From Hysterangium stoloniferum (Eukaryota > Basidiomycota > Agaricomycetes > Hysterangiales > Hysterangiaceae): a DNA stretch of 64,000 nt. The notes beneath the pieces were generated by a model. It was not told the origin of the DNA, made no database searches, and saw nothing but the letters and a program-made list of their open reading frames with translations. Positions 22,051 through 40,208 of this stretch are shown here, in pieces. The position numbers and the translations under genes are program-made. Positions within the stretch are counted from its first letter, which is position 1, and the number at the start of each line of letters is the position of its first letter. The DNA is taken from the NCBI GenBank assembly GCA_015178975.1, contig WHVD01000023.1, forward strand, positions 124,001-188,000. Reading direction: 5' to 3'.

Positions 22051-22421
22051 TGTGAGAGGTACTATAAAATATATTCTGAAATATAGTCAGGATGGACCCA
22101 CACTATATTTCGATTATTATTTCTATTTTTCTCTCTATTTAATCATACACATATATTAGTTTGATGATCTATGTATTCATATGGTACATAGACTCTTGTG
22201 GGTGCATACATACTAGACCTATGTACTCTAGCACCTATAGTTAGAACTCAGACACTTTTTACCCTGTAACCATGACTTGCCCAGACACCCACTTAGTGTC
22301 CTGCAAGTTGTGATTGGGGTATCATCTCGACCATCACAGATGGGCTTTAAATATCAGCACAATCACTGTTTCGAACTATATTAGTCGAAACTCAAATCAT
22401 TATCTTAATCCATGCAGACTA

Positions 22422-24023
22422 CAGTGAGGGACAAAACCCTTCCAATGGTTTTTAGTTGTGAAAAGATCCTTGAATAAATCAAGAACCACTGTAGATACAG
22501 ACCTGAACTTTGGGGGTTGGTTAGGTCTATATGTTATCTATACACCCTTAAAATATTATGACATAAGCATTAGTACTTCCCACACTATAAACAAAACACT
22601 AATAAAATCACATTGGAAGGGTTTTGTCCCGGTATAAAAAGAACACAAATCAAACAATCTAGTACTTGGTATAGCCTCTCTTGGCCTTCAAAACAGCCTC
22701 AACCCTTCTAGGAATACTCTCTATCAAGTTCTGACAAGTAGAGGCAGGGATATTCTCCCACTCTGTCTGAACCCTCTCCCACAACTTATGGGTACTCTTG
22801 GGTGCCACTTCATACTCTCCCAACCTCCTTTTGAGGTAATACCACAGGTGTTCAATTGGATTAAGGTCAGCAGACTGAGGTGGCCATACCATGACCATAA
22901 ATCCATTGTCTTTGAATCAATTAATGGCCTTTGTGCTCTTGTGTTTGGTATCATTGTCCTACTGAAAGACCACATCTTCTGTGTTCTTGCTATAATACTC
23001 CACAGTTGCTTGAAGTTCATCTTCCAAAATGCTACCATAAAGGTCAGTATCCATTCTCCCATTAATATTGGTGGAATATCCTGGGCCTTCCCACAACATA
23101 CAGCTCCACAACATCAGATTTCCTCCCCCAAACCTGACCGTGCCCTTGACCAGCCTACCACTGAGCCCCTCTCCTGCCCTTTTCCACATCTAATTCCTCC
23201 CATATGACCCAAACAATTGATTTTTGTCTCATCTGACCAAACAACCCTCTTCCAATCATCCACAGTCCAGTCCTTGTGTGCCAGAGTAAAGTCCATCTTT
23301 GCCTTCCTATACCTCTTATTGAGTAAAGGCCTTTTTCTCTTCACCATAGCCCTCATTTCAGCCTTCTTGAATGCCCTATGAACAGTTCTAACTGAGATAG
23401 ACTCTCCAGTCATATCTTGAATGGTTTGGTGACCTCAGTGGCATTTTCAGCCTTTTGAGAAGTGATTTGTTGAATAGAATAATGAATATCTGAGGAGGGA
23501 AGCTTGCATAAACAGCCACCAGATGAGTTGGCAAGTGATGAGCAATGGGTAGAATGAATTCTGGATATAGTGGACAGATCCTGGCCAGTGATTTCAGAGA
23601 TCTGAGGAGCAGACTTGCCCTTATTGAGAAAAGTGAGAATATGGCTAAGCTGAGGAGGAGTAAGAGCCTTCATGGTGTAGAATGTTGAGCTATGGGGATG
23701 TTTTTGGATTGGAAAGTAAACAGATGTATATATATATAATTTTGACAGGTCAGATGATTTTTATTTGCACTTATTTGCATATAAACAATATGGTTATATG
23801 TCAATCATGTGACAGGGACAAAACCCTTCCAATGCAGTTTAATTAGTATTTTATTTATAGTGTGGGAAATACTGATGCTTATGTAATAATACTTTAAGGG
23901 TAAATAGATAACATATAGACCTAACCACTCCCCAAATCTTAGGTCTGTAGCTACAGTGGTTCTTGAGTTATTCAAGAATCTTTGCACAACTAGAAATCAT
24001 TGGAAGGGTTTTGTCCCTCACTG
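22422..24023 (-). mobile_element. Tc1/mariner-type DNA transposon, TA target site
   Basis: The 1602-bp element is flanked by TA dinucleotides (22420-22421 and 24024-24025). Terminal inverted repeats of 209 bp (22422-22630 and 23815-24023) start CAGTGAGGGACAAAACCC. Inside each TIR the same 20-bp motif recurs at the inner end in inverted orientation, so each TIR is bounded by two facing copies. The transposase gene in between runs on the minus strand and is broken. Confidence 0.9.
22659..23673 (-). pseudogene. Tc1-family transposase, frameshifted
   Basis: Reading from 23673: an N-terminal helix-turn-helix (LSHILTFLNKGKSAPQISEI), a second paired-type domain (SISVRTVHRAFKKAEMRA), the first catalytic Asp in VVWSDETK, GGGNLMLW, the second Asp in a QDN motif near 22950, and the catalytic Glu in SADLNPIEHLW near 22870. 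The C-terminus RVEAVLKAKRGY ends at 22659. So all DDE landmarks are visible, but the protein is spread over at least three frames. Two of the frame changes (after EVTK and before WKRAGEG) also occur in the copy at 53391-54254. Confidence 0.88.
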
Positions 24024-24303
24024 TATGTCCATGCTACTCTATCTTTGCTCGACCCTCTTATTATTTCCTAAATCATTAGAGCAGTCATCTAGAATCATAC
24101 TGTAAGGTCAATTCTCCTTCCAGTCATCTTAGTGATCTATTCAGTACTTAAGATAACTAATCATTTCAATTGTATTGAACTTAGACAGTCAATACATATT
24201 TTAACCTGTATTAGACTTAGATTGTCAATACATTGTCGTGTTGCACTTGAACGGTCAATATTCTTCATATATAGAATGGTCAGAACTTCCACGACTCTTC
24301 TCA

Positions 24304-25480
24304 GTGGTGATCCGAGCTGGACCATCGTTTCCCTATGAAGAAAACATCTATTAAAAGTAGCATACTCCTTTACATACAATGACTATGGGCAAAGAACAGG
24401 CCATAAAACCTCCAGTGGGATCAAGTAGTTCCTTCCCACAATGAAGACCTGCTAGTCTCAAACCACCTGGAAATGTTACAATGAGAAAGCCTTCGCTGAC
24501 TTCCCAAAAAAAAACCTCTGTCAGAGGCTCTCCCCGAACTGAAGTTGAACCAGTGATGGCCAGCCAATTAAGACCACTTTCATGCCAGGAACTATTGAAA
24601 ACACCAGAAAAAAACCTTTCACCTACCCACAATAAGGATGTGATTCTGGAATTTCCACCACATCAAGTAATGCTTCAATGTGCCTACCACAGACAACTGG
24701 TTTATGGTGAACCAATGAATGACAAGTGGGACATGTACTACACCTCTCAGATTTTGGAGGAGGAAGTTATGGTGATTATGCAGGACTATCAAATGAGATA
24801 CCCCACTGTGTGAGAGATGCTGCAAACTATACTCCAAAATATAGTCCAGAAGAGCCCATGCTATATTTCCATTATTATTTCTATTTTCTCTCTATTTTAT
24901 CATACACATTTATCTAGTTTGACAGTCTATGCATTCAGTACATTGACTCTTGTGGGCACATACACACCAGACTTATGTATTCTAGTGCCGGTAGTTAGAA
25001 CTCAGACACTTTTTACCCCACAACCATGACTTACCCAGACACCAGTTAGTGTCCTGTAAGTTGTGATTGGGGTATTGTCTCGACCATCACAGATGGGCTT
25101 TACTATCTGCGCAATCAGAATTTTGAACTGTATTAGTCAAAACTCAATCTTTATCTCAATCCGTGCTACTCTGTTATTTGACTCTTTCGTTACTCTCTTC
25201 TACACTCAAGCAGTCATTCATAATTGTACTTTACAGTCAATTCTCGTTATTCGTTTTAGCTCTCTATTCTACTTTAGATAGCTATTTCACTCAACCATAT
25301 TGAACTAAACAGTCAATACTCGTTCCTGTATTAGACTTAGATAGTCAATACATCTTTGTGTCATACCTAAACCGTTGATATTCTTCGTATATAGAATGGT
25401 TAGAACTTCCACCACTCTTCACACTATGCCTCCATCAATTGCAACCTGGTTAGGTAGGTATCATGGGATTCTATCAGCTC
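24304..25480 (+). pseudogene. Gypsy family D Gag remnant
   Basis: It follows the 5' LTR and starts at about 24379. The stretch 24481-24806 matches the start of the intact-looking Gag of element D (40285-41499): the MRKPSLTSQK start, EFPPHQVMLQ, LVYGEPMN and WDMYYT motifs are in the same order. A family D LTR splits it at 24809; after that LTR the match resumes with PPSIATWLGRYHGILS at about 25428-25480. Then the element is cut and joined to minus-strand pol of another copy. Confidence 0.75.
24809..25423 (+). repeat. Solo LTR, family D, nested in Gag
   Basis: Starts TGTGAGAGATGC and ends CCACTCTTCACA. It interrupts the Gag reading between residues YPT and MPPS. The flanks CACTG and CTATG are only partly alike, so no clean target duplication can be claimed. 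Confidence 0.8.
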
Positions 25481-25723
25481 AAACCCTCTTCATGTGATCA
25501 AGGACTCTGGGAGAGGTCAATCCTTTTGCAGATAAATCCAAGGTCATAGGCTCATAAATTAAGAAATGCATGAGTTTATCCACAGCGACAAAGATGGCTG
25601 AGTAAGCACCCTCTGCAGAAGGTGGCAATCTGGTAATCAGGTCCATTGAGACAACCTCAAATGGCCTTAAGGGTACTTCTGCAGGTCGAAGAGCTCCTTG
25701 TCGAGTGGAATGATCAACCTTAG

Positions 25724-26319
25724 TGTGAGAGGTATGGTGAAATATGCTCGGGAAATATAGTCTGGATAAGCCCATACTATATTTCCATTATTATTTCTTC
25801 TTTCTCTCTATTCTATTATACACTTATATTAGTTCAACAACCTATGTATGCGGTACATCAACTCTTGTGGGCGCATATACACCAGACTCATGTATTCTAG
25901 CACCCGTAATTAGAACTCAGACACTTTTTATCCCGCAACCACAACTTACCCAGACACACAGTTAGTGTCCTGTAAGTTGTGATTGGGATATTGTCTCGAC
26001 CATCACAGATGGGCTTCAACTATCTACACAACCAGAGTTTCGAACTGTGCCAGTTGAAACTCCACTTATATCTCAATCTGCGTGAACCACATCCACGCTA
26101 CTCTATCATTCGACTCTCATTATTCTTTTCTACACTCGAGCAGTCTTTCGGAATTACACCTAATGGTCGATTCCCTTTATTCATTTCTATCTACTCTACC
26201 TTAGATAGTTACTTCGCTCAGATGTATTGAACTAAAATAGTCAATACAACTACGTGTCGTACCTAAACGGTCGATATTCTTTGTATATAGAATGGTTAGA
26301 ACTTCCACCACTCTTCACA
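25724..26319 (+). repeat. Solo LTR, family D, TSD CTTAG
   Basis: Starts TGTGAGAGGTATGG and ends CCACTCTTCACA, flanked by CTTAG at 25719-25723 and 26320-26324. It splits the integrase between CQKTK and VDHSTRQG. Confidence 0.9.
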
Positions 26320-26480
26320 CTTAGTTTTCTGGCATATGTCACAGCTGCAAGCGTATGCCATGCAGTCCTGCAACATCCTCAGCCAGAAAAACCGGTCCTT
26401 CATCAGCTGGAAAAGTCTGTGACTGCCTGCATGTTTGAAGGGATTGTCATGTATCAATTTGAGTATGGTTGACGTCGTGC

Positions 26481-27118
26481 TGTGAAGAGTGGTGGAAGTT
26501 CTAACCATTCTATATACGAAGAATATTGACCATTTAGGTATGACACAATGATGTATTGACCATCTAAGTCTAATACAGACCAAACACGTATTGACTGTTT
26601 AGTTCAATACGGTCAAGTGAATTAGCTATCTAAAGTAGAATAGAGAGCTAAAACGAATAAAGGAGAATTGACTGTAAAGTACGATTCTGAATGACTGCTT
26701 GAGTGTTGAAGAGAAGAATGAGAGAGTCAAATAACAGAGTAGCATGGATGTAGTCCATGCGGATTGAGATAATGGTTTGAGTTTCAACTAGTATAGTTCG
26801 AAGCTCTGATTGCACTAGTAGTTAAAGCCCATCTGTGACGGTCGAGATGATACCCCAATCACAACTTACAGGACACTAACTGGGTGTCTGGGTAAGTTGT
26901 GGTTGCGGGGTAAAAAGTGTCTGAGTTCTAACTACTGGTGCTAGAATACATAAGTCTGGCACAAATGTGCCCACAAGAGTCAATGTACCAAATGCATAGG
27001 TCGTTGAACTAATTATATGCATATAACAAAATAGAGAGAAAGTAGAAATAATAATGGAAATATAGTATGAGCTCGTCCAGACTATATTTCTGGAGTATAT
27101 TTTGCCGTACCTCTCACA
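26481..27118 (-). repeat. Solo LTR, family D, TSD CGTGC/CATGC
   Basis: Reverse orientation (starts TGTGAAGAGTGG, ends GTACCTCTCACA). Flanks are CGTGC at 26476-26480 and CATGC at 27119-27123; the single difference is a CpG-to-CpA change. It lies in the same pol remnant as the plus-oriented LTR at 25724. Confidence 0.88.
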
Positions 27119-27765
27119 CATGCTGCTAGGCATGCAGATTCGACTTTTCCAGTCCAAATCTCGAAAGAACAATAGCTTATTCTTGCCAATGAAATAGTGT
27201 GAAGGGGTAGCTACCATGTTTGGGGAAATGGGATTGGCAGCATAATGATTTCTGAAGGCAGGATCTTTCTGATATCCGTCACAAAGTTCCTTAGCATAAT
27301 TCTCGTCAATTTCTATAAGCAATTGGGGGTTCGAGAGAGTAAAGTTTGCCTCGTCAATTTCATCATTTCTGGGAAGGTTGTGCAGATCCCATTTCATTTT
27401 GGGGGACCTCTTCCATTGTTCCAATTGGTTCAACTAACTTGTGATGAGTGAGAAAGACAGCCTTTTCTGCTGGTTTGTTCTCCCATAATGTCCCATTGTC
27501 ATTCCGGTTGTAAGAATCTGCTACGATTGGTAAGAGGTCATCTCTTGCAGGACTAGCACAGTCAGTTACTCGAGGGAGTCTAGACAGTGGGTCAACATTG
27601 CTGTGTAGTTGTCCCACTTGATGTAGGATTTCCAGACCGGGGTATGCAGTATATAGCTGCATATACCGCCCCCCATGTGGCGAGTCGATGATTGGTATTC
27701 TCGTAAGATCTGGCCCATTGTAACACCACATGGTCAGTGATCAGAAGTATACTGTATATCATTGG

Positions 27766-28095: not shown

Positions 28096-29385
28096 TGTTA
28101 AGAACTGAAAACTGACTAATGTCAGTAGGCCGAAGGGGACTGATCGGAAGGACTTGGCTTCAGCTTATGTGCTGTGCCCTTGCAATTATCCATCGGGTGT
28201 CCTTAAATTTCGGACAGGCAAAGACTAGTCCTATTGAGTACCTCTCGGCGAGCTACCAATTGGAACTGAAGGATAAGTTGAGTGTCGGGCCAAGGGGTCG
28301 GGAACCGAGAGTGGGCGAGTGCACATGAAGGTGGATAGCGGGATACTTAGTATGAGACTTCTAGAGGTGTGTGTTAAGTGCTGTGTCGGGAACTTATTCC
28401 AGAACTATCAGAAAGTCACCGGGAAGTTGGGAACTATCGGATAGGGTCAGGACGTCGGCTTCAGCTTATGTGCTGCACCTCTACGCAAACGCTCAAAGTC
28501 CTTAATTTCAGAGGTGAGACTTACAATGGAGGCTACAGATATTCAGAGTTCTGAAGAGTTCCGAATATCGAGTGTAGAGAAAGATGGGAGAAGGAATAAG
28601 AAACTAAGTCGATATCAGATCTAAGGTAAAGTACAAATTCGCGGGAACTAATATAAGTCTTCTCGTTATTGTACTACAAACTAAGACCATAATAAGACGG
28701 AAATGGAAATAATATTAAAACGGAAATACAATAAGACATATCAGGGAGACAATATTCCGAAATGGGAATATAATAAACAAATGAGTGAATACTTGTCAAC
28801 AGACAAATTACCAAATGTGGAACAAGGGAAGAATGCGGAAGATACGGTAACTATGATGTTCCATAGTCAGTGATCGGAAGTCGGATATTGAAACATCCGG
28901 GAATGGGTTGTAACAGTGTGAGAGGGTATTCTGAGTCAATATTCTGATTGCCTAGTAACTACAACTACAGCAGGTTCATATACAAATATTCGGCATCTAG
29001 AAAATACTAACTAGGAGAAGAGTGGAAAATGGTATTGACAAATAAGCTTGACTAGGAACGGGAAGGTTATTATTAGTTCAGAGGCCATAAAATAACCGAG
29101 AGCAGGATTATGAGAAAAGGAAATAGTCTGAGGGTTACAAGTATATATAGACATATGTGAAACACAGAGTAGAATGGATCATCATAATAAAAGGGACATA
29201 TCAGAGTTTAACCAGATAGTACGAGTATATTTTGACATGGGTGTAAATGGAGTTTGATCACCATGAAAGCATACGTCAGCATCGGGAGACTGACGGTTTC
29301 TGATGTGATGACTTGAATGATGACTTGAATTGTTGATAGGTGGCAATAATCTCGGGGATCGTCGGGTTGCAACACAGTTGTAACA
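28096..29385 (+). repeat. Solo LTR, family A, TSD CAACC
   Basis: TGTTAAGAACT to CAGTTGTAACA, with CAACC at 28091-28095 and 29386-29390. It holds a nested solo LTR of family B (28372-28915). Without that insert it is about 740 bp. Confidence 0.92.
28372..28915 (-). repeat. Solo LTR, family B, TSD GTGTG, nested in LTR A
   Basis: Starts TGTTAAGTGCT and ends GGGTTGTAACA, flanked by GTGTG at 28367-28371 and 28916-28920. At 544 bp it is slightly shorter than the LTRs of element B and more CpG-depleted, so it comes from an older insertion than 29505-37710. Confidence 0.92.
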
Positions 29386-29504
29386 CAACCTCCTTAATGA
29401 AGGTCTTGATTTTCAAATTGAAAAAAATGTAATGAGTGTACTACTGGTACAGTCTCCCATGGCAAATGAGGCAATTAAAGAATGTATTGATATTCTAAAA
29501 GAGT

Positions 29505-30076
29505 TGTTAAGTGCCGTGTCGGGAACTTATTCCGGAACTATCGGGAAGTCACCGGAAGGTCGGGAACAACTAGATAGGGTCAGGACATCGGCTTCAGCTT
29601 ATGTGCTGCGCCTCTACGCAAATGCTCAATGTCCTTAATTTCGGAGGTGAGACTTATGATGGGAGTTACGGATATTCAGAGTTCCAAAGAGTTCCGAATA
29701 TCGAGCGTACAGAAAGACGGGAGAAGGAATAAGAAACTAAGTCGATATCAGATCTAAGGTAAAGTACAAATTCGCGGAAACTAATATAAGTCTGCTCGTT
29801 ATTGTACTACAAACTAAGACCATAATAAGATGGAAACGGAAATGTTCTTAAAACGGAAATACAATAAGACATATTAGGAAGGCAATATTCCGTAACAGGA
29901 ATATAACAAACAAACGAGTGAATACTTGTCAACGGACAAATTACCAAATGCGGAACAAGGGAAGAATGCGGATGATACGGTAACTATGATGTTCCATAGT
30001 CGGAGGTCAAAAGTCAGAAGTCGGGGATCGGAAGTCGGGAGTCGGATATTGAAACATCCGGGAATGGGTCGTAACA
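29505..30076 (-). repeat. Element B 3' LTR
   Basis: 572 bp, TGTTAAGTGCC to GGGTCGTAACA on the plus strand. It contains the block GGCTTCAGCTTATGTGCTG shared with LTR families A and C. It lies upstream of the antisense gene at 30261 and could contribute to its transcription. Confidence 0.95.
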
Positions 30077-30204
30077 GTACCCCCCTGTTAGGCCGAAATC
30101 CCATAGAGGCGATTAGGTACTAAGTGTTTGAAGCGACGGCTGATTGTTATGTGTCGTGAAATTTACGCAAATATGGAGGTGAGAGTTTCGGCTGTTATTC
30201 TGAG

Positions 30205-30212
30205 TATAAAAA
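30205..30212 (+). promoter_or_regulatory. TATA box of the antisense gene in element B
   Basis: TATAAAAA lies 56 bp upstream of the ATG at 30261, outside the LTR. The spacing is the same as at the secreted-protein gene at 18825. Confidence 0.6.
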
Positions 30213-30260
30213 CCTCCAAATATTCGAATTAACGTTTTTGTTTCTTCAACCACAACTTGT

Positions 30261-31403
30261 ATGTCGATTCGTCGGCCGTTGTTCATCACTACCCCGGAAG
30301 ACTCAGATACCGAAATATCCGTACTTCAAAAGATGTCGAAGGTCGCAGAACTTCAACAAAAACACCAGAAAATGGAGGAGTTGAAGCGACGACAGGAGGA
30401 GGAGGAAAGAGTGTTGATGCAGGAGTTGAAGGATGCGGAGGAGGCGGAAAAGCGGGAATTGGAGTGGGTGAAGGTGGAAAAAGAAGCATGGATACGGAAA
30501 ACGGCGGAGGCGCAGAAAAAGAAAGAGGAGATGGAAAGATTACAGCGGGAGTCGGAGGTGGCGGAAAAACTGAAGGAGATAAGGGAAGGAAAGGTAAGTT
30601 TGACCCATACATTCCGTGATTCCAACCGATAACTATTGATGCAGCGAAAAGCCGTGGAGGTGGAAGTAGAGGGTGAAGCTGGACCTTCGAGTCCTAAAGT
30701 GAGTGCATCTGTAAAGGAAACGATAGTCATTTAACTTCCGAAACAGAAACCAAAGGTCAAAGCTCCAGAACAAATGGAAGTCGTCCACGAAACTCCATGT
30801 TATCGATGTTCCATACGGAACATGACGTGTTGGAAACAGAAGGTAAAATGGGGTGGAACTTGCTATCCCTGCGCGGTTCTCAAACTTCCGTGCACCCTTG
30901 CCTCAAAAAGGGTTCCGAAAGGTGAGAAGACTCCGAAAACTAACGACGCGGGAAGTTCAGGAGCAGCCAAAGCTACGGAAACTGAAACGTCGAAAATGGA
31001 TAGTACAGGCATTGAGCTTCTCAAGGAAACCGTCGACGCGTTGGTTTTTATCGGGACGGAAGTCATGAAAATGCGGGATACAATGGATCGCCATAATGAT
31101 ATCCAGGAGAAAGGTTTCCGTTCGTTGGTCCGGAATTTCCGGAGGCAAAACGATTTCCTGGAGAAGATAATGGTTAGCATTGGTGTAATCGCAGTATCCG
31201 AGGGGTTTTCCGATAAGGCACGGGAAAACGCTAATGATCTGTTGGCGGAATGTGTTGAAAAGAGGTGGGTGTCGGGAAAAGGGCCGGAAGAATCAGAGAG
31301 TGAAGATGAAGAGGTACAGGATATGGTGGAAAGTGCGGAAATTGCTGAAGAGCCGGAAGTTGGGACGGAAGGTGGATTTGGGGTGTCAGAGACTTTGAGA
31401 TAG
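30261..31403 (+). CDS. Antisense accessory gene of element B: coiled coil, Cys6 zinc cluster, acidic tail (three exons)
   Basis: Exons are 30261-30593, 30645-30698 and 30747-31403. Introns are 51 nt (GTAAGT...GCAG) and 48 nt (GTGAGT...ACAG), both phase 0, giving 347 residues. Residues about 25-110 are a highly charged heptad-rich helix (KHQKMEELKRRQEEEER and onward), likely a coiled coil. Residues about 142-170 contain C-x2-C-x6-C-x10-C-x2-C-x6-C (CYRCSIRNMTC, then CYPCAVLKLPC), the spacing of fungal Zn2Cys6 clusters. A helical middle and an acidic C-terminus (ESESEDEE) follow. The layout resembles a DNA-binding regulator, but this is inference. It is convergent with pol, which ends at 31498, and lies inside the LTR-bounded element. 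Neither exon 3 nor the splice sites are damaged, in contrast to the element's own gag and pol. Confidence 0.78.
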
Positions 31404-31497
31404 ATTTAATAATATATTATTTTTTTTTTGACTTGCAAAACCTAAAACGAGTGTGAAAACGGAAGTGTCGGAAACTGAACAGAAAAGAACAGAAGGA
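31404..31497. terminator. Convergent 3' ends of antisense gene and pol
   Basis: About 90 bp between the stop of the antisense gene and the stop of pol. It contains an AATAATATATTATT palindrome-like stretch followed by a T10 tract at 31422-31431, a plausible polyadenylation region for either strand. Confidence 0.4.
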
Positions 31498-32293
31498 TTA
31501 GAGTGCTGATAAAGGTCCGGGTTTGCCTGGATAAGCCGTGTGGAAGTCAGTAACAATTTCCATAGCATGTCCAAGTTCCGTGGCCAATATCCATGAAGTT
31601 TCCTCGTCAGTACCTTCATAACCTGCCCATTTAACTAAATAGAGCAATTTACAAGTACGTCGGCGATTGTCGATTTTAGAATCCAAAATTTCGGAAACTT
31701 CGAATTCGGGTTCTCCATCAATGATGACCGGAGGGGACGGAGGTTGAATACGTTCCGGGAATGAGTTAGGAACACAAGGTTCTAACATGGAAACGTGGAA
31801 AACGGGGTGGACTGCTCGCATACTGTCGGGAAGACGGAGAGTCCATGAAAGTGAACCGGCTTGTGCTATAATTTCAAAAGGTCCTAAGAATTTCTCAGCG
31901 AGTTTTTAGAAGGTCAGGTAGTACGGAAGAATTGAGCTTTTACAAAAACCTGATCACCAATTTTAAAATTAGGAGGTGGGATCCTGTTTTTGTCCGCGGA
32001 ACGTTGATAATATTCCTGTGCGGAAGAAATAGCTTTCCGAAGTTCTTGATGTAATTCGTCGAGATCGGTAATAAATTCTTGAGCACGGACAGAAGCCAAA
32101 TCTCGTTCGGAATGTACTGTGAGATTCGGATTATAGCCTTTATTGGCGAAGAAGGGAGATATGCCGGTGGTTGCATTCAGAGAGTTATTGTAGGCGAATT
32201 CCGCGATCGGAAGAAGGGATTTCCAGTTGTCCTGTTGGTAATTACAATAGATGCGGAGATATTGTTCCAGTGTTTGATTAACGTGTTCCGTTT
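31498..32293 (-). pseudogene. Element B integrase C-terminus and chromodomain
   Basis: Minus strand from 32293: the integrase part after the catalytic Glu region, with AYNNSLNATTGISPFFANKGY near 32150, then the GDQVFVKAQFF motif near 31940. A frameshift near 31910 follows, then LAEKFLGPFEI and the HPVFHVSMLEP motif. The chromodomain is at about 31590-31700, with EFEVSEILDSK, LYLVKWAGYEG and SW. Chromodomains of this kind direct integration to modified chromatin in chromoviruses. It ends at 31498. Confidence 0.85.
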
Positions 32294-32298
32294 GTCCA

Positions 32299-33003
32299 TG
32301 TTAAGAACTGGAAACTGACTAATGTTGGTGGCCGACGGGGACCGATCGGAAGGACTTGGCTTCAGCTTATGTGCTGCGCCCTCGCAAATATCCGTAGGTT
32401 GTCCTTAAATTTCAGACAGGCGAAGACTATATCCTAAGAAGGACCGATCGGAACCGAAGGACAGGTCAAGTGTCGGGCCAAGGGATCGGGCCGAGAATGG
32501 GCGAGCGCACGCGAAGGCGGAAGGGGGTTCTTCTAGTATGAGACTGCTACAGACGTATGAGGGTATTCTGAGTCGATATTCTGATTGCCTAGTAACTACA
32601 ATTACAGTGGGTTCATATACAAGTAACAGGCGTCTGGAAAATACTAATGGGGAGAAGGGCGGAACACGGTATTAACAATAAGCTTGACTAGGAACGGGAA
32701 GTTTATGATTAGTTCGGAGGCCGATGATAACCGAGAGTGGGATTACGATAAAAGGAAATGGTTCGAGGACTACAAATATAGATAGACATATGCGAAACAT
32801 AAGATTGAACGGATCAACATAATAAAGGGGACGTATCAAAGTTTGACCAGACAATACAAGTTATTTGACGTGGGCGTAAATGGAGTTTGATCTTCGCGAA
32901 ACATTCGTCAGCTTCGGGGCCGATGGTTTCTGAGAGGATGACTTGAAACATTGACAAGTGGCGATAACCTCGGGGCCGATAGGGTTGCGACACGGTCGTA
33001 ACA
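32299..33003 (+). repeat. Solo LTR, family A, TSD GTCCA, nested in element B integrase
   Basis: 705 bp, TGTTAAGAACT to CGGTCGTAACA, flanked by GTCCA at 32294-32298 and 33004-33008. It is inserted just after the YHLEGDG motif of the integrase, before the catalytic Glu. It is the CpG-richest family A copy here, so probably the youngest. Confidence 0.95.
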
Positions 33004-33008
33004 GTCCA

Positions 33009-34387
33009 TCACCTTCCAGGTGATATCCCGAGGTGAAGTGTAGTTTCATGTCGAGGGCTTTTCCGAGGGCCTGGAAGAAATGGGAGACGAACTTGGAGCC
33101 TCGATCGGAAGTTACGTGAGATGGAACTCCGTGTTTGGAAAATACGTGAATAATGAAAAGTTCCGCTAATTGTAAGGACGTGATTGTATCATGAGTGGGT
33201 ATGAAAATGCCTTGTATCGAGAATCGGTCCACAACAACTAGAATGGATGTAAAGCCTTCGGAAGTCGGGAGTTGTTCGATAAAATCCATGGAAATTGAAT
33301 TCCAAGGTTTTTCTGGTATCGGGAGTTGCTTGAGAAGGCCGTACGGCTTATGCCTCTGGGTTTTGGAGCGTAAGCAGGTGGTGCATGACTTACAGAACTG
33401 AGTTACGAAATCTCGGAGGTTGGGCCAAGTATATTCTCTACGGATTAAACCAAGAGTATTGTTGATGCCGTAATGTCCAGAGATTGGATGATCGTGTTTA
33501 TACTGAAGTACGCAGAGTCGAAGATTGTCGGAATCTGGAACGTAGATACGTCCATCGAGACGGATAAAACCTTGAGAGTCTTGTGACCATCGGGGTTGGT
33601 CGGGATTGTCGGGAATGTCTAAATGTGGCTTGAGGGCCGGGTCGGAAGTGAGTGCGGAAAGGATATCTTGATGTAATTGCTCAATGTCCATAATCATGAC
33701 GCTACGCATAATTGGATAGTAAAGGGAAGTTGCTCGGATAGATGCGGAAAGTTGTTGCATTGTAAAAACCGGTTTCAAGTTATGCAGATTAACAACAGTG
33801 TAGTTACTTTCCCCCTCTTTAGGATAGATGTCCCATCATCGAGTCATGGCATCTGGCTTTCCACCAAGACGTCCGGGTCGGAAACGGATAATCATGTTGA
33901 AAGCGGAAAGGAATTCAGACCAACGGGCCTGCCGGCAGGTTAAAAGTTTAGTGGTAGAAAAATATTCGAGATTTTTGTGATCGGTAACAACGTCAACGGG
34001 AGTTGCAGAACCTTCGAGATAATGGCGCCAATGTTTGAAAGCTTCAAAAATAGCCAAAAGTTCCTTATCATGAATGTCGTAATTGAGTTCGGATACTGAA
34101 AGTGTCCAAGAAAGGAATGCGACCGGATGAATTTCACCGTCAGAATCTTGAATGGAAAGGATCGCGGCAATTGCATAATCGGAAGCATCGGTTTCCACAA
34201 TAATCGGAACATCAGGTTTCCAATGGGAAAGGATCGGGGCAGAAGTGAAAGCATTTTTTAAAGTCTGGAAGGCGGAGCGGCATTTATCGTCAAAAACCCA
34301 TGGTTGAGTTTTACGGGTAAGACAAGTGAGCGGTACTGTAATATCCGAGTAATTCCGAATAAAACGATGGTAAAAGTTGGCGAAACC
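33009..34387 (-). pseudogene. Element B RNase H and integrase N-terminal part
   Basis: One minus-strand frame, in phase with the RT, broken by a TAA at 34388 and a TGA at 33836. It contains RNase H (VETDASDYAIAAILS, DKELLAIFEAFKHWRHYLEG, TDHKNLEYF), then the integrase H2C2 domain (GHYGINNTLGLIRREYTWPNL, C-x2-C). The first catalytic Asp is in ISMDFIEQLP and the second in VTSDRGSKFVSHF. It runs to YHLEGDG, where LTR A cuts it. Apart from these stops the domains look complete. Confidence 0.87.
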
Positions 34388-35482
34388 TTAAAATGATTGA
34401 ATGTCCTTGACCTTCCGTGGTTTGGGCCAGTCACAGACAACTTGAACCTTGGTTTCATCCATACGGAGACCATCAGGGCCGATGATGAAACCTAAGTATT
34501 CAATAGAATCCATGTCGAAATAACATTTTTTACCGTTGGCGAAAAGACTGTTTTTACGGAGTCTTCGGAAGACTTCACGGACCTGTTCATCGTGAAGAGC
34601 GGGATCCTCGGAAAATACCAAAATGTCGTCCAAATAGACTATAACACATACGTCAAGCATGTCGGAAAATATATCATTAACAAAACGTTGAAAAGCGGAA
34701 GGGGCGTTGGTAAGGCCGAATGGCATAACCAACCATTCAAAGGATCCATAGTGAGTCCGAAAAGCAGTTTTCCATTCGTCGCCCTCGGCAATTCGGACCA
34801 AATGATAGGTGTGTTTGAGGTCTATTTTGGTATAAATCCGAGCTTTCCGTGGGGCATCGAGTAAATCGGTAACGAGTGGCAGTGGATACTTATCTTTCCG
34901 TGTGATGGAATTTAATCCTCTGAAATCGACACAGAGTCGAAGGGAGCCATCCTTTTTACGGACGAAAAGGACGGGTGCTCCATACGGAGACTTTGAGGGA
35001 CGGATAAAACCTATCGACAAATGTTCATCCAGGAACTCCCGAATAGACGAAAGTTCCGATTGGGATAATGGGTAAATAGGTCCTAGCGGAGGGTTTGAAC
35101 CGGGCTCAATATCGATTTTTAAGTCGTAGGGCCTATGTGGTGCAAGCCTGTCAGCTTTTTGCTTACTGAAAATGTCCGCGAAATCATGGTATTTTTCGGG
35201 AACTCCTTCCAGGTCGGCTTTTAGCTCAGATAATTCTGGAGTCGCAAAACGACCAGATGCTTCATCAACTTTTAAGCTGATTGAAAAACATTGCGAACCA
35301 TCCAGTTTACTCGCCCTAACAAATGCCGAAGCATTGATGAGAGAGATTTTTTGGAGGCTCGGAAGTTTCGGTAGAAGCCGGAGGTGCCATTGATGCCGAA
35401 AAGGCGTTGGCCGGAAAAGACGCTGCAGGAGGAACGGAAGTGTGGGGAGTCCGGAAAGTAATACTGCCCAATACCCAGTCAA
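34388..35482 (-). pseudogene. Element B reverse transcriptase
   Basis: This is the Ty3/gypsy RT. A 364-codon frame covers the connection after protease ([20 protein letters not shown]), fingers and palm ([20 protein letters not shown]), [20 protein letters not shown] with the first catalytic Asp, [13 protein letters not shown], and the catalytic [10 protein letters not shown]. It ends at a TAA within the QSF-GFANFYHRF motif, one codon change from open. A frameshift near 35350-35480 separates it from the protease frame. Confidence 0.92.
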
Positions 35483-35753
35483 TCAACGGATTATATCGGG
35501 TGAGCCAGTTGTATCCAAGAACTACCGAACAGCTAGAGTCCAACTGTGTTACGAAAAAGGTAACCGTCTGGGATGTTCCACAAGGGAACCGGATAGACAT
35601 GTCGCAGGCTTGAGTAATTGCCGTATTGCTAGTGCCGTCAAACAAACGTAAGGAAATTGTGGGAACAGAATGGAGTTTCAGATTATGTTTCATGGCAAAG
35701 GTGGTATCTACAAAACAGTGTGTGGAGCCGGAATCTATTAGAGCTCGGAACAC
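35316..35753 (-). pseudogene. Element B protease
   Basis: Retropepsin-like aspartic protease that would cleave Gag-Pol. [13 protein letters not shown] carries the catalytic Asp (DSG variant), followed by [11 protein letters not shown] and [17 protein letters not shown], the typical second half. The frame runs on past the domain in the wrong phase, so a frameshift to the RT frame lies near 35350-35480. It could have been a functional ribosomal shift, but the position is not one I recognise. Confidence 0.85.
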
Positions 35754-35893
35754 TAAATTTCCAAGAAAGTCAGAGACGGGTTTTACAAATAATGAATCGG
35801 GATTAGAGAGAGCGGACGCGTTGAGGCGGATAACCTCGGAAACACAGAGAGAGTCAATGCAACCCTCTGTCCGTGCAGATTCCGGAGGGTTGC

Positions 35894-37104
35894 TTACTCT
35901 TTTTTCGACTCCGTGGCGGGTTTTTCCTTAGACGTTGTAGTCGTAGTGGAAGTTGCCGCGCGAGCCTTGGAAGAGCTAGATTTAATGGTACAGTCGGAAA
36001 CCTTGTGTCCGCCTTTTCCACAGAAAAGGCAGAGGTCGTTGTCCATACGCCGTTGTTTCTCCTTCGGGGTGAGTTTACCGTCGGTACCCAACAAATGGGA
36101 AATGTCGGGTTTGTCGGAAGATGACTGTTTCTCCTTGTTGGATTTCTTGTCTTTCTTCCGGTTGGAATTTGATTTGCCAGTATTAGTGCCAGAGCCGGTA
36201 TTATTGCCTGAGTTGTTGCCGGAAGACTTGCTAGTCGACGCCTTGTTGTTCTGAGAACGTTCCATCGGGTTCTCTCGAGAAACCTCAGCTTTTCGTTCCC
36301 AATAACGGGCATTGGATGTTTGAGCTTTCATCCGCATGAGTTGGAGAGTTTTTGGCTTTCCATCTTTGCAGATTTCGTCTTTAAGGCGTGACGGAAGTCC
36401 CATATAGAAATGGTGCCTGAGGGCGGAATCGTCCCATCCACATCGTGCGGCGAGGGTATTGAACTTGACGAGATAATCGGAAACTCGTTGATTGTTCTTC
36501 ATCTTGAGCGTCATTAGTTCATTTTCTGCTTTGCCGGATTGATCGTAAGGTCCGAAATTAGTTTCCAGTTCTTCCACGAAAGCATCCCAGTCGTCGAGCC
36601 ATGCGGGTGTCTCGTCGGATATTCTGGATAGTCCGGGTTCGAACCAATCCTGAGTGGTATCCTTGAGATAAGAGAGTGCAAAATTGACTTTTCGGCATTG
36701 GGTCGATCACGGAAACTGAAACGGCATTGGAGAAGGAAATTCTTCAATTTTTTCGGATCTTTGCCGGTAAAAGGTTCGGGTTCTTTGACTCCGGTGCGGG
36801 ATGATTCTTTATTATCCTCAGCGGATTTCAAATAGTCAGCGAATTTCACAATGGAGTTGATAAACAACATTTCAGTCGGTTCGTCGGAAGATTTCTTTTT
36901 CGATGTCTCCGGCTGATCTTCTGCTTCGTTGTCGGAAGTGTGGGGAACATTGGGATCCTTTGTTACCTCGGTAACCTCCTCGGTAACTTCTTCGACTGAA
37001 GCTGATGGTGTCGGCTGAATTGGGGTTTCAGGTTGAGTGGTGTAAAGTTGCAATGGGGATTGAAGTTGGGATGGTCCTTCGGCAGCTTTGTGTTTGGGAC
37101 CCAT
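35894..37104 (-). pseudogene. Element B Gag, single frameshift
   Basis: It starts at the ATG at 37104, about 35 bp inside the 5' LTR. The first frame (37104 to about 36690) reads a Pro/Glu-rich N-terminus and the capsid start EPEPFTGKDPKKLKNFLLQC. The second frame (to 35894) continues NFALSYLKDTTQDWFEPG, the capsid helices, a Ser/Asn-rich linker and the zinc knuckle CLFCGKGGHKVSDC (C-x2-C-x4-H-x4-C). Loss of one T in the run at 36688-36692 (plus strand) explains the frame change. Confidence 0.87.
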
Positions 37105-37138
37105 GATGAGCGAGTCGCAGAGTTGAGATCTGATATAC

Positions 37139-37710
37139 TGTTAAGTGCCGTGTCGGGAACTTATTCCGGAACTATCGGGAAGTCACCGGAAGGTCGGGAA
37201 CAACTAGATAGGGTCAGGACGTCGGCTTCAGCTTATGTGCTGTGCCTCTACGCAAACGCTCAATGTCCTTAATTTCGGAGGTGAGACTTATGATGGGAGT
37301 TACGGATATTCAGAGTTCCAAAGAGTTCCGAATATCGAGCGTACAGAAAGACGGGAGAAGGAATAAGAAACTAAGTCGATATCAGATCTAAGGTAAAGTA
37401 CAAATTCGCGGAAACTAATATAAGTCTGCTCGTTATTGTACTACAAACTAAGACCATAATAAGACGGAAATGGAAATGTTCTTAAAACGGAAATACAATA
37501 AGACATATTAGGAAGGCAATATTCCGTAACAGGAATATAACAAACAAACGAGTGAATACTTGTCAACGGACAAATTACCAAATGCGGAACAAGGGAAGAA
37601 TGCGGATGATACGGTAACTATGATGTTCCGTAGTCGGAGGTCAAAAGTCGGAAGTCGGGGATCGGAAGTCGGGAGTCGGATATTGAAACATCCGGGAACG
37701 GGTCGTAACA
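37139..37710 (-). repeat. Element B 5' LTR
   Basis: 572 bp, same length as the left LTR. Differences from it are eight transitions, every one at a CpG in one of the two copies. The primer-binding region would be just left of 37139 (minus strand), but I cannot name the tRNA. Confidence 0.95.
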
Positions 37711-38052
37711 AGAGTTCAGTATACCTGATGTTCTGGATACCAAATACCACAATCCTTTAGAAGCCATTAGACTATCTTTTGAATCTGCTCATACTTCACA
37801 TATTTTCTGTGATAATATAATTCTATGGTCTATTGGAGGAGACTTTAGAAATAATATATATGGAAAATGTAAAGTATATTTCTCACTTTCCTTTAAGATC
37901 AAGTTACTATGCTCAGATACTCTCAAGAATAATGATATTGCACCTACAAATACTCCTTACTTTTCTTATAAAATTTCATTATCTGAGATACCAATCAAAA
38001 ATATAATAAAATTCCTAAGAGAAACCATTTGTGATGAAATTATATTACATGA
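37711..38052 (+). pseudogene. Gene X, fragment 2
   Basis: After the target duplication of element B the frame from 29504 continues without a shift (FSIPDVLDTKYHNPLEAIRL) for about 112 codons. It contains SHIFCDNIILWSIGG and KISLSEIPIKNIIKFLRE, and is cut at 38052 by LTR C3. Strongly AT-rich. No domain recognised. Confidence 0.7.
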
Positions 38053-38877: not shown

Positions 38878-39574
38878 CATGATATAGATATCTCCCAAGA
38901 TATGTATATCCTATGTTACTACTAGAAAAGATGTTCTTAAGCATATATTAAATCTTGGAATAAGAAAAGAAGATATTATAGATGATAGAAAAAAGGTTGG
39001 AGATAATTGTATATCCTTTTATAATGAAGATCATGTAAGATCAAAGTATATATCTAACAAATTTGTACAAATGCTAGAAAGCTGTGATGTGATGACTACT
39101 TTAGGATCTAGAATCCACAATTTATATGTTGATCCTACTGAGTCAATGTCACAATCACTAGAAAGATTAAAGGATGTGGGAATGACAAGGATTGAAGTTA
39201 TGTTTTGTGGTGACAAATTATTTTCAAAATCATGGTATATAGACAACTTTATTAATATTAGAAATAATTTTAATGGATGTAGAGTCTATAGAAGTTCCTT
39301 TGAAGAGCAGTGGAGAGCACTTGTAGATAGCATCTATTCCAAATCAACAATAATGGTTTACTTAAAAGATAGAAAGTTTTTTTCATATTGGCATTGGTGG
39401 AATTCTTTGACAGGAAAGATTAAAGGAGGTTTCCAAAAAAGTGTAAATGAAGAAGATATAATTTAATTAGTTTCTAACTACAGTTTTAATGGAAATACTA
39501 CCAAATTTGTTAGGGTTGATGATGGGATAACCATAGTAAAGGAATACAAAAGATCACAAAAGGGTATTACACTT
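38878..39574 (+). pseudogene. Gene X, fragment 3 (central part)
   Basis: It opens with DIDISQDMYIL in phase with fragment 2, then a 1-nt shift near 38910 leads into VTTRKDVLKHILNLGIRKED. The long stretch that follows (to 39466) includes LGSRIHNLYVDPTES, GMTRIEVMF, SFEEQWRALVDSI and SYWHWWNSLTGK. A TAA at 39464 is followed in phase by NYSFNG and GITIVKEYKRSQKGITL up to the insertion of element D. The D-x-D and later R-x-E motifs loosely recall plasmid-type replication initiators, but the evidence is weak and I do not assign a function. Confidence 0.65.
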
Positions 39575-40208
39575 TGTGAGAGGTATGGCGAAATATGCCC
39601 AGGAAATATAGTCTGGATAAGCCCATACTATATTCTCATTATTATTTCTTCTTTCTCTCTATTCTATTATACACTTATATTAGTTCGACGACCTATGTAT
39701 GCAGGACATTGACTCTTGTGGGCACATACATGCCAGACTCATGTATTCTAGTGCCCATAATTAGAACTCAGACACTTTTTACCCCGCAACCACTTTTTAC
39801 CCAGACACCCAGTTAGTGTCCCATAAGTTGTGATTGGGGTATCATCTTGACCGTTACAGATGGGCTTCAACCATCCACGCAATCAGAGTTTGAACTGTAC
39901 CAGTCGAAACTCCATCTATATATCAATCCGTGTGGACTACATCTGGACTACTCTATCATTCAACTCTCTTGTTACTCTTTTCTACACTCAAGCAGTCATT
40001 TGTAATCACACTTAACAGTCAATTCCCTTTATTTGTTTTAGCTCTCTACTTTACTTTAGATAGCTACTTCACTCAAACATATTGAACTAAGTAGTCAATA
40101 CCTGTTCGGCCCGTATTAGACTTAGACAGTCAATACATCTACGTGTCATACCTAAACAGTTGATATTCTTCATATATAGAACAGTTAGAACTTCCACCAC
40201 TCTTCACA
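39575..40208 (+). repeat. Element D 5' LTR
   Basis: TGTGAGAGGTATGG to CCACTCTTCACA, followed by GTGGTGATCTGGGCTGGACC, presumably containing the primer-binding site. Confidence 0.95.

Follow-up and report, generated by a model that had tools for sequence, protein, structure and literature searches.

Retrotransposition usually erases introns, which raises the question of how a gene with two introns could have been kept inside an LTR retrotransposon, and what such a gene would do there. The question is posed by a 64,000-nt stretch of the Hysterangium stoloniferum genome (contig WHVD01000023.1; hereafter the window), in which a minus-strand retroelement, here called element B, carries on the plus strand, in the interval from pol to its 3′ LTR, a gene (30261–31403) with two introns and a 347-residue product.

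Structure of the element and its antisense gene

Element B is bounded by two LTRs of 572 bp each (29505–30076 and 37139–37710) that are 98.6% identical (1.4% of sites differ), and it is flanked by the 5-bp target site duplication (TSD) AGAGT at 29500–29504 and 37711–37715. We assigned it to the chromoviruses because its minus-strand frames match gag, reverse transcriptase (RVT_1), SH3_Tf2-1, and Chromo in Pfam; LTRs, gag, reverse transcriptase, and a chromodomain at the integrase end occur together, as in Ty3/gypsy chromoviruses. The pol gene is split into several frames, partly through insertion of a solo LTR. The 29-mer spanning the LTR end and the polypurine tract (PPT) has 411 genome matches at ≤2 mismatches, compared with 0 for a reversed control. 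An extra fragment of the family B LTR, about 90% identical, is located just outside the 3′ LTR of the element at 28372–28885.

The features of the locus are collected in Table 1. The TATA block of the antisense gene is internal to the element, 126 bp beyond the LTR end in the window. Each intron contains a branch-like motif: ATAACT in intron 1, which doubles as an in-frame stop, and TTTAAC in intron 2, also with an in-frame stop. The TATA box, three exons, two phase-0 introns of 51 and 48 nt, and 347-residue product proposed by a first-pass annotation of the window were thus all recovered, with GT-AG boundaries that recur in the other copies aligned below.

Table 1. Coordinates of element B, its antisense gene, and repeats discussed in the text (window positions)
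Feature	Position	Strand	Details
Element B, Ty3/gypsy chromovirus	29505..37710	-	LTR pair, TSD, Pfam
3′ LTR of element B	29505..30076	-	U3 end (about 29990-30060) with CGG-containing direct repeats
Probable polypurine tract	30077..30090	-	read by eye
TATA block GAGTATAAAAACCTCC of antisense gene	30202..30217	+	TATA at 30205, 56 nt before ATG at 30261
Exon 1	30261..30593	+	charged helix, coiled-coil-like (by reading)
Intron 1	30594..30644	+	51 nt (50-54 in other copies), GT-AG, phase 0
Exon 2	30645..30698	+	encodes RKAVEVEVEGEAGPSSPK
Intron 2	30699..30746	+	48 nt (47-48 across copies), GT-AG, phase 0
Exon 3	30747..31403	+	six-cysteine cluster, conserved helical stretch, acidic tail, stop
pol C-terminal end (SH3-like + chromodomain)	31498..31905	-	Pfam; tail to tail with antisense gene
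Solo LTR within element B pol	32299..33003		TSD GTCCA; sequence equals sister-family LTR end (L062), by eye
Roughly 640-bp repeat	22061-22400, 24804-25423, 25723-26321, 26480-27120, 39570-40208	both orientations	copies or parts

Distribution and conservation of the gene

We searched the 111-Mb genome for further copies. At least 40 full or nearly full gene copies, at 88–100% identity, were recovered at the DNA level (the best 40 of 354 candidates, the window's own included). The search with the exon 3 protein sequence returned at least 150 relatives at 71–100% identity (the best 150 of 895 candidates, again including that of the window), and 110 of the 150 listed are free of stops. Beside 101 of the 150 listed exon 3 matches lies a pol C-terminus on the opposite strand, at a gap of 83–784 bp (median 96 bp). 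None of the 150 pol ends listed (the best of 2985 candidates) lies near one of these exon 3 matches on the same strand. The gene shares with antisense accessory ORFs (aORF-3R) its placement between pol and the 3′ LTR, its orientation opposite to gag-pol, and its conservation across many family copies, and its TATA block would provide a promoter of its own. The first-pass annotation had argued that the gene moved with its element and had named absence from other family B copies as the observation that would count against this; the gene is present in those copies, and the LTR pair, the TSD, and the recurrence of the same placement in many copies all agree with joint movement.

Both introns retain GT-AG boundaries in 42/42 copies of the gene alignment (the window, L009–L047, L060, and L061). 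A 43rd copy, L057, has an intact intron 1 and an intron 2 without its 3′ part and acceptor, bringing the tally among copies read to 43/43 for intron 1 and 42/43 for intron 2. Across copies, the donors alternate among GTAAGT, GTGAGT, and GTAGGT, and branch motifs resembling TAAC or CTAAT are retained (by eye). The exon 2 donor motif GPSSPK/GTRRGT (the slash marks the junction) has 331 genome matches, compared with 0 for a reversed control. Every copy long enough to include the TATA block keeps it (42 in all: 39 of the first 40, plus L060, L061, and L057; L046, which starts at a contig end, was left out), and the 16-mer of the block occurs in 195 exact genome copies, compared with 1 for the reversed sequence.

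Several smaller features of the copies were also recorded. The 3′ half of intron 2 in L057 is deleted at about 1480–1515, apparently between short AAAAGGTC repeats (by eye). Among L009–L028, the TCGG repeat array by the LTR end (U3) differs in repeat number, and the antisense TATA lies 132–133 bp from the LTR-end motif in the 16 of the 20 copies that allowed the measurement. The reading frame is intact in 26 of the 42 aligned copies; one of the remaining 16 is cut by a contig end. Some stop codons are shared between copies, at codon 43 in L015, L019, L030, and L041 and at codon 138 in L017 and L022. Substitutions among gene copies are rich in transitions (233 vs 88), with G>A and C>T common. 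The shared stops and the transition richness could reflect either decay linked to methylation or defective copies mobilised along with others.

A sister family with introns at the same positions

A sister group accounts for 17 of the 150 listed pol ends, at 86–87% identity, and the region beyond pol was read in one of its copies, L062. The antisense gene there encodes 292 aa, with introns of 50 and 51 nt and a TATA 57 nt before the ATG. Its product aligns with the window protein at 91 identical residues out of 281, with a score of 152, whereas the highest score among 300 shuffles was 69. The two introns fall at exactly matching points of the alignment (REGK/RKA and GPSSPK/K), and the six cysteines have the same spacing. 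When the sister exon 3 protein was used as the query (best 150 of 530 candidates listed), an antisense exon 3 was found, among the matches listed, beside 14 of the 17 sister pol ends, on the opposite strand and at a distance of 102–108 bp. In two of the remaining three, C14 and C101, the exon 1 donor motif follows the pol end at about 220 and 277 bp, the pattern expected of a gene that has lost an internal segment. The sister family, whose LTR end matches by eye the solo LTR in the pol of element B, looks younger; its 17 pol ends have nearly equal scores among the matches listed, and several pol frames reach up to 1302 aa.

Given that genes so diverged have their intron positions in common, the introns appear to be ancestral, which argues that they were present in the common ancestor of both families and were retained through many cycles of reverse transcription. 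They would persist because, on the sense genomic RNA, they are reverse complements that go unspliced, so the cDNA returns them to the genome. This explanation had been offered by the first-pass annotation for the window alone, and the positions common to the sister family support it.

Recombining gene versions on one backbone

The antisense gene exists in divergent versions. Two copies, L060 and L061 (group IV), are 95% identical to the window over the upstream 60 bp and 95–99% identical over the aligned near-downstream stretch, yet their exons 1 and 3 are only 83–85% identical, with a dS of 0.43. Likewise, 15 listed pairs combine a gene identity of ≤78% with a pol-end identity of ≥97%. Judged by the LTR end, promoter, and pol end, the differing gene versions thus ride on one nearly uniform backbone. 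A tie between gene version and LTR type found no support, as the exact group I LTR-end/PPT 29-mer lies 707–709 bp before exon 3 in at least 11 of 15 group IV-like genes (100 of the 411 places listed).

Group II (L029–L046) is 97–99% like group IV at 30461–30700 and 94–97% like group I over 30761–31180, and this mosaic identity marks its members as recombinants. Recombination between co-existing elements would swap the gene and thereby place divergent versions on one backbone; the mechanism of exchange is probably template switching.

Selection on the antisense protein

Variants shared among the first 40 copies fall at codon positions 1, 2, and 3 in counts of 57/62/121 over the exons (p = 1e-7) and 34/30/76 over exon 3 alone (p = 9e-7), and shared variants in the introns of the 40 copies have no codon-like periodicity (p = 0.58); the p values of these codon-position tests are optimistic because recombination links some variants. 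Non-synonymous and synonymous changes in the first 40 copies number 103/101 among shared variants, or 0.41 of the neutral ratio, and 100/60 among singletons, or 0.68 of the neutral ratio. Pooled dN/dS for the 26 intact copies is 0.51 at dS < 0.03 (7 pairs) and 0.27 at dS 0.2–0.6 (147 pairs). For the window, dN/dS is 0.19 against L047, 0.34 against L060, and 0.32 against L061. A simple neutral model predicts about 318 stops in the 150 listed exon 3 matches, or 159 when half of the divergence is assigned to the window's branch, and 49 are observed. Under the same two assumptions, 30 or 59 of these matches would be free of stops, compared with the 110 observed. Together, these comparisons demonstrate purifying selection on the predicted antisense protein.

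The strength of this selection was compared with that on gag-pol in 20 close copies with longer flanks. By shared variants, the gene has a ratio of 0.58, pol one of 0.38, and gag one of 0.34, so that in these copies the gene is the less constrained; the corresponding singleton ratios are 0.56, 0.55, and 0.58. Small disabling lesions in 19 copies amount to 13 in 19.8 kb of the gene (12 without a 7-nt loss near the gene start in L028), 67 in 66.4 kb of pol, and 16 in 20.2 kb of gag. Events >50 bp, tallied separately, number 0, 4, and 1, respectively. Across these 19 copies, lesion density did not differ significantly between gene and pol (p = 0.18 with 13 gene lesions, 0.11 with 12) or between gene and gag (p = 0.57 with 12). 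The first-pass annotation had singled out the gene as conspicuously intact beside broken gag and pol, and a lesion density like that of pol and gag does not support this.

Features and homology of the protein

The window protein contains six cysteines spaced C-x2-C-x6-C-x10-C-x2-C-x6-C and has an acidic C-terminal end. An NLS-like stretch, KRK...SPKKPKVK, is assembled from the end of exon 1 (REGK), exon 2, and the start of exon 3 (KPKVK), and a conserved stretch of exon 3 reads as helical. The consensus spacing of fungal Zn2Cys6 transcription factors (PF00172) is C-x2-C-x6-C-x5-12-C-x2-C-x6-8-C. This canonical six-cysteine spacing is common to the antisense protein: none of the 26 intact copies departs from it, and the sister copy L062 has it too. 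The basic residues typical of the first half of Zn2Cys6 clusters are mostly missing in the window protein; CNRCTKRGRTC in the sister copy more nearly resembles the first half of Gal4-type clusters, which is basic. Against the Pfam Zn_clus profile (PF00172), the window protein scored 7.4 bits vs a cutoff of 21 (E = 6.6), and the sister protein had no listed match. Because the score falls below the cutoff, we do not file the protein under Zn2Cys6. The earlier label of Zn2Cys6-like therefore holds for the cysteine spacing, whereas membership in the family is weak.

Pfam, PDB-sequence, and protein-database searches matched the protein to no family of known function. At E values up to 10, Pfam gave no PF04195 (TRP28) match for the window or sister protein; it listed no bZIP match for the antisense protein and no fungal transcription factor domain for the window protein. 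The two matches in the PDB sequence search were both at chance level, and a single-sequence structure prediction of exon 3 was unusable (pLDDT 47.6). The protein-database search with the window protein found no homologue outside this genome, although such negatives are weak evidence of absence because annotation often masks repeats. The sister protein retrieved two relatives and a six-row alignment three (the best 7,991 candidates by word sharing were scored), all of them hypothetical proteins of H. stoloniferum. The annotated relatives P0001 and P0002 read across the exon 2/3 junction (GP-SPK/KQK), as predicted.

The charged helix, NLS-like stretch, six cysteines, and acidic tail suggest a nuclear, nucleic-acid-binding, dimeric protein. 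On these features, with the cysteines invariant among the intact copies, the regulator-like character proposed at the outset remains a fair reading.

Comparison with known antisense genes

The literature treats additional antisense ORFs in the interval from pol to the 3′ LTR as an established class in plants, and the product of the Grande antisense ORF is cited as nuclear and expressed from its own promoter (PMC7264820, PMC11963269). As described there, the plant ORFs resemble the gene in element B in place, orientation, presence in many family members, and a conservation like that of other element genes. In contrast, the plant Retand lineage is non-chromoviral and encodes a TRP28 protein, whereas here an unrelated protein is carried by a fungal chromovirus (PMC7264820, PMC11963269). 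A further difference is the two conserved introns; the word "intron" is absent from the main text of PMC7264820 and PMC11963269. A fungal antisense case cited by PMC7264820 is Boty with brtn, from Botrytis cinerea (Zhao et al. 2011). Compared by its description, brtn likewise adds an antisense gene to an LTR retrotransposon of a fungus, but the host of Boty is an ascomycete and that of element B an agaricomycete.

Outside the retrotransposons, HBZ of HTLV-1 and APH of HTLV-2/3/4 are expressed, as is predicted for the gene here, from an antisense spliced message that begins on the 3′ side, and HBZ is reported to be nuclear and to lower 5′ LTR expression (PMC10186651). According to the same source, HBZ is a bZIP protein and the HBZ/APH antisense promoters lie within the 3′ LTR, unlike the antisense protein without a bZIP match and the internal TATA block described here. 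From what that source describes, a trans-regulator of the element's own LTR, as with HBZ/APH, would be the nearest working analogy. Antisense accessory genes are thus already known in plant elements and Boty. The literature searched, largely outside subscription journals, showed neither this family nor any antisense gene of a fungus whose introns are conserved; the conserved-intron fungal form is new among that literature, and this is no proof of novelty.

Proposed function and competing readings

That the antisense gene occupies the interval from pol to the 3′ LTR, has a conserved TATA block of its own, and contains two introns whose predicted positions match in two families is well established by the comparison of copies. 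Its role is a further step. We propose, with a probability of roughly 0.55, that it is an accessory chromovirus gene whose antisense spliced mRNA encodes a nuclear six-cysteine regulator, most likely of the element's own LTR/U3. The mRNA would start at the antisense TATA and then be spliced. The protein would enter the nucleus, pair through its charged helix, and bind nucleic acid through the cysteine cluster, acting in trans, most likely on the element's own LTR/U3. By analogy, it would tune sense transcription much as the HTLV antisense proteins do, from an unrelated domain.

A candidate target was sought in the LTRs, since CGG is the triplet read by Zn2Cys6 proteins. The CGG direct repeats of the LTR/U3 lie about 145–215 bp from the antisense TATA, and the family B LTR contains 28 CGG + CCG triplets vs 15.5 in shuffles (z 4.5). 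The sister LTR has no CGG enrichment (z 0.5), and another neighbouring repeat, which contains a family B LTR fragment, is enriched (z 4.3). As evidence for CGG sites in LTRs as the protein's target, the result is mixed.

Of the competing readings, the one we rate highest, although still improbable at well under half the weight of an LTR/U3 regulator, is that the protein counters host silencing as a chromatin factor on the element's own chromatin rather than binding a promoter. The NLS-like stretch, the charged helix, and the divergent gene versions would suit conflict with the host or other elements, and the transition-rich changes (233 vs 88) are compatible with methylation. However, no family of known function resembles the protein, dN/dS is <1 in the listed pairs (a pair-level estimate), and the divergent versions look recombined. 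Somewhat less probable again is a role in the particle or at integration, for instance as a nucleic-acid chaperone, in nuclear import, or as an integrase cofactor. The gene is conserved together with the element, and its product combines a cysteine cluster with a basic stretch and a coil, as would suit a protein that binds nucleic acid; on the other hand, a separate antisense promoter would uncouple production from gag-pol, and the gag of element B already has a CCHC-like match of its own (below the Pfam cutoff).

The antisense transcript itself might be the functional product, through dsRNA or transcriptional interference with the genomic RNA, with the protein secondary. By geometry, about 1.2 kb at the 3′ end of the genomic RNA would be complementary to the mRNA. 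We consider this unlikely because the codon-position bias and the dN/dS of 0.19–0.34 (window vs L047, L060, and L061) call for a protein, length differences between groups keep the frame, and stops are far fewer than under neutrality.

We attach very little credence to the true coding frame being a 180-aa minus-strand ORF opposite exon 3, of which the plus frame would be a shadow. That ORF is open in 20/40 copies with an equally low dN/dS, a measure that cannot separate the two frames because their third positions coincide. The plus frame is open in 34/40 (two frameshifted copies left out); the TATA, ATG, both introns, and exons 1–2 are all on the plus strand; and the sister copy keeps the plus gene, its minus frames over exon 3 reaching no more than about 106 aa. 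It is openness, splice sites, and the sister copy that tell the two frames apart, and on these the minus-strand frame was rejected as the true gene. Finally, the gene might have been captured from the host recently, in a single event, and be drifting neutrally now, a reading to which the broken copies (16/42 lack an intact frame, one because of a contig end) might point; this is refuted by the gene's presence in other family B copies and in sister elements, its fixed place in both families, its conserved introns, and the selection on it.

If the protein is a nuclear regulator of the LTR/U3, its divergent versions might have a further meaning. Tentatively, and with clearly less confidence than in the regulator itself, we suggest that a multi-exon gene kept on the opposite strand serves as an exchangeable, multi-version control module, in which new versions of the nuclear regulator are favoured by frequency-dependent conflict among elements or with host silencing. 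Such conflict would be expected to yield what is seen, namely gene versions at a dS of about 0.43 in elements whose LTR ends and pol C-termini are almost the same, together with recombinants. The gene versions on one backbone invite functional comparison, and the system offers a natural test of antisense accessory protein function in LTR retrotransposons, alongside plants (TRP28, Grande) and other fungi (brtn). More broadly, because two introns occupy the same positions in two diverged families, the antisense strand appears to be a refuge in which a gene with introns can long persist as part of a retroelement.

Other repeats in the window

Two further repeats were observed outside element B. 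At 22420–24025, inverted repeats of 214 nt that are 89% complementary surround a broken frame, which reads like a Tc1/mariner-type transposase (by eye). A solo-LTR-like repeat of roughly 640 bp is present in both orientations in at least five copies or parts (Table 1), four of them within about 5 kb.
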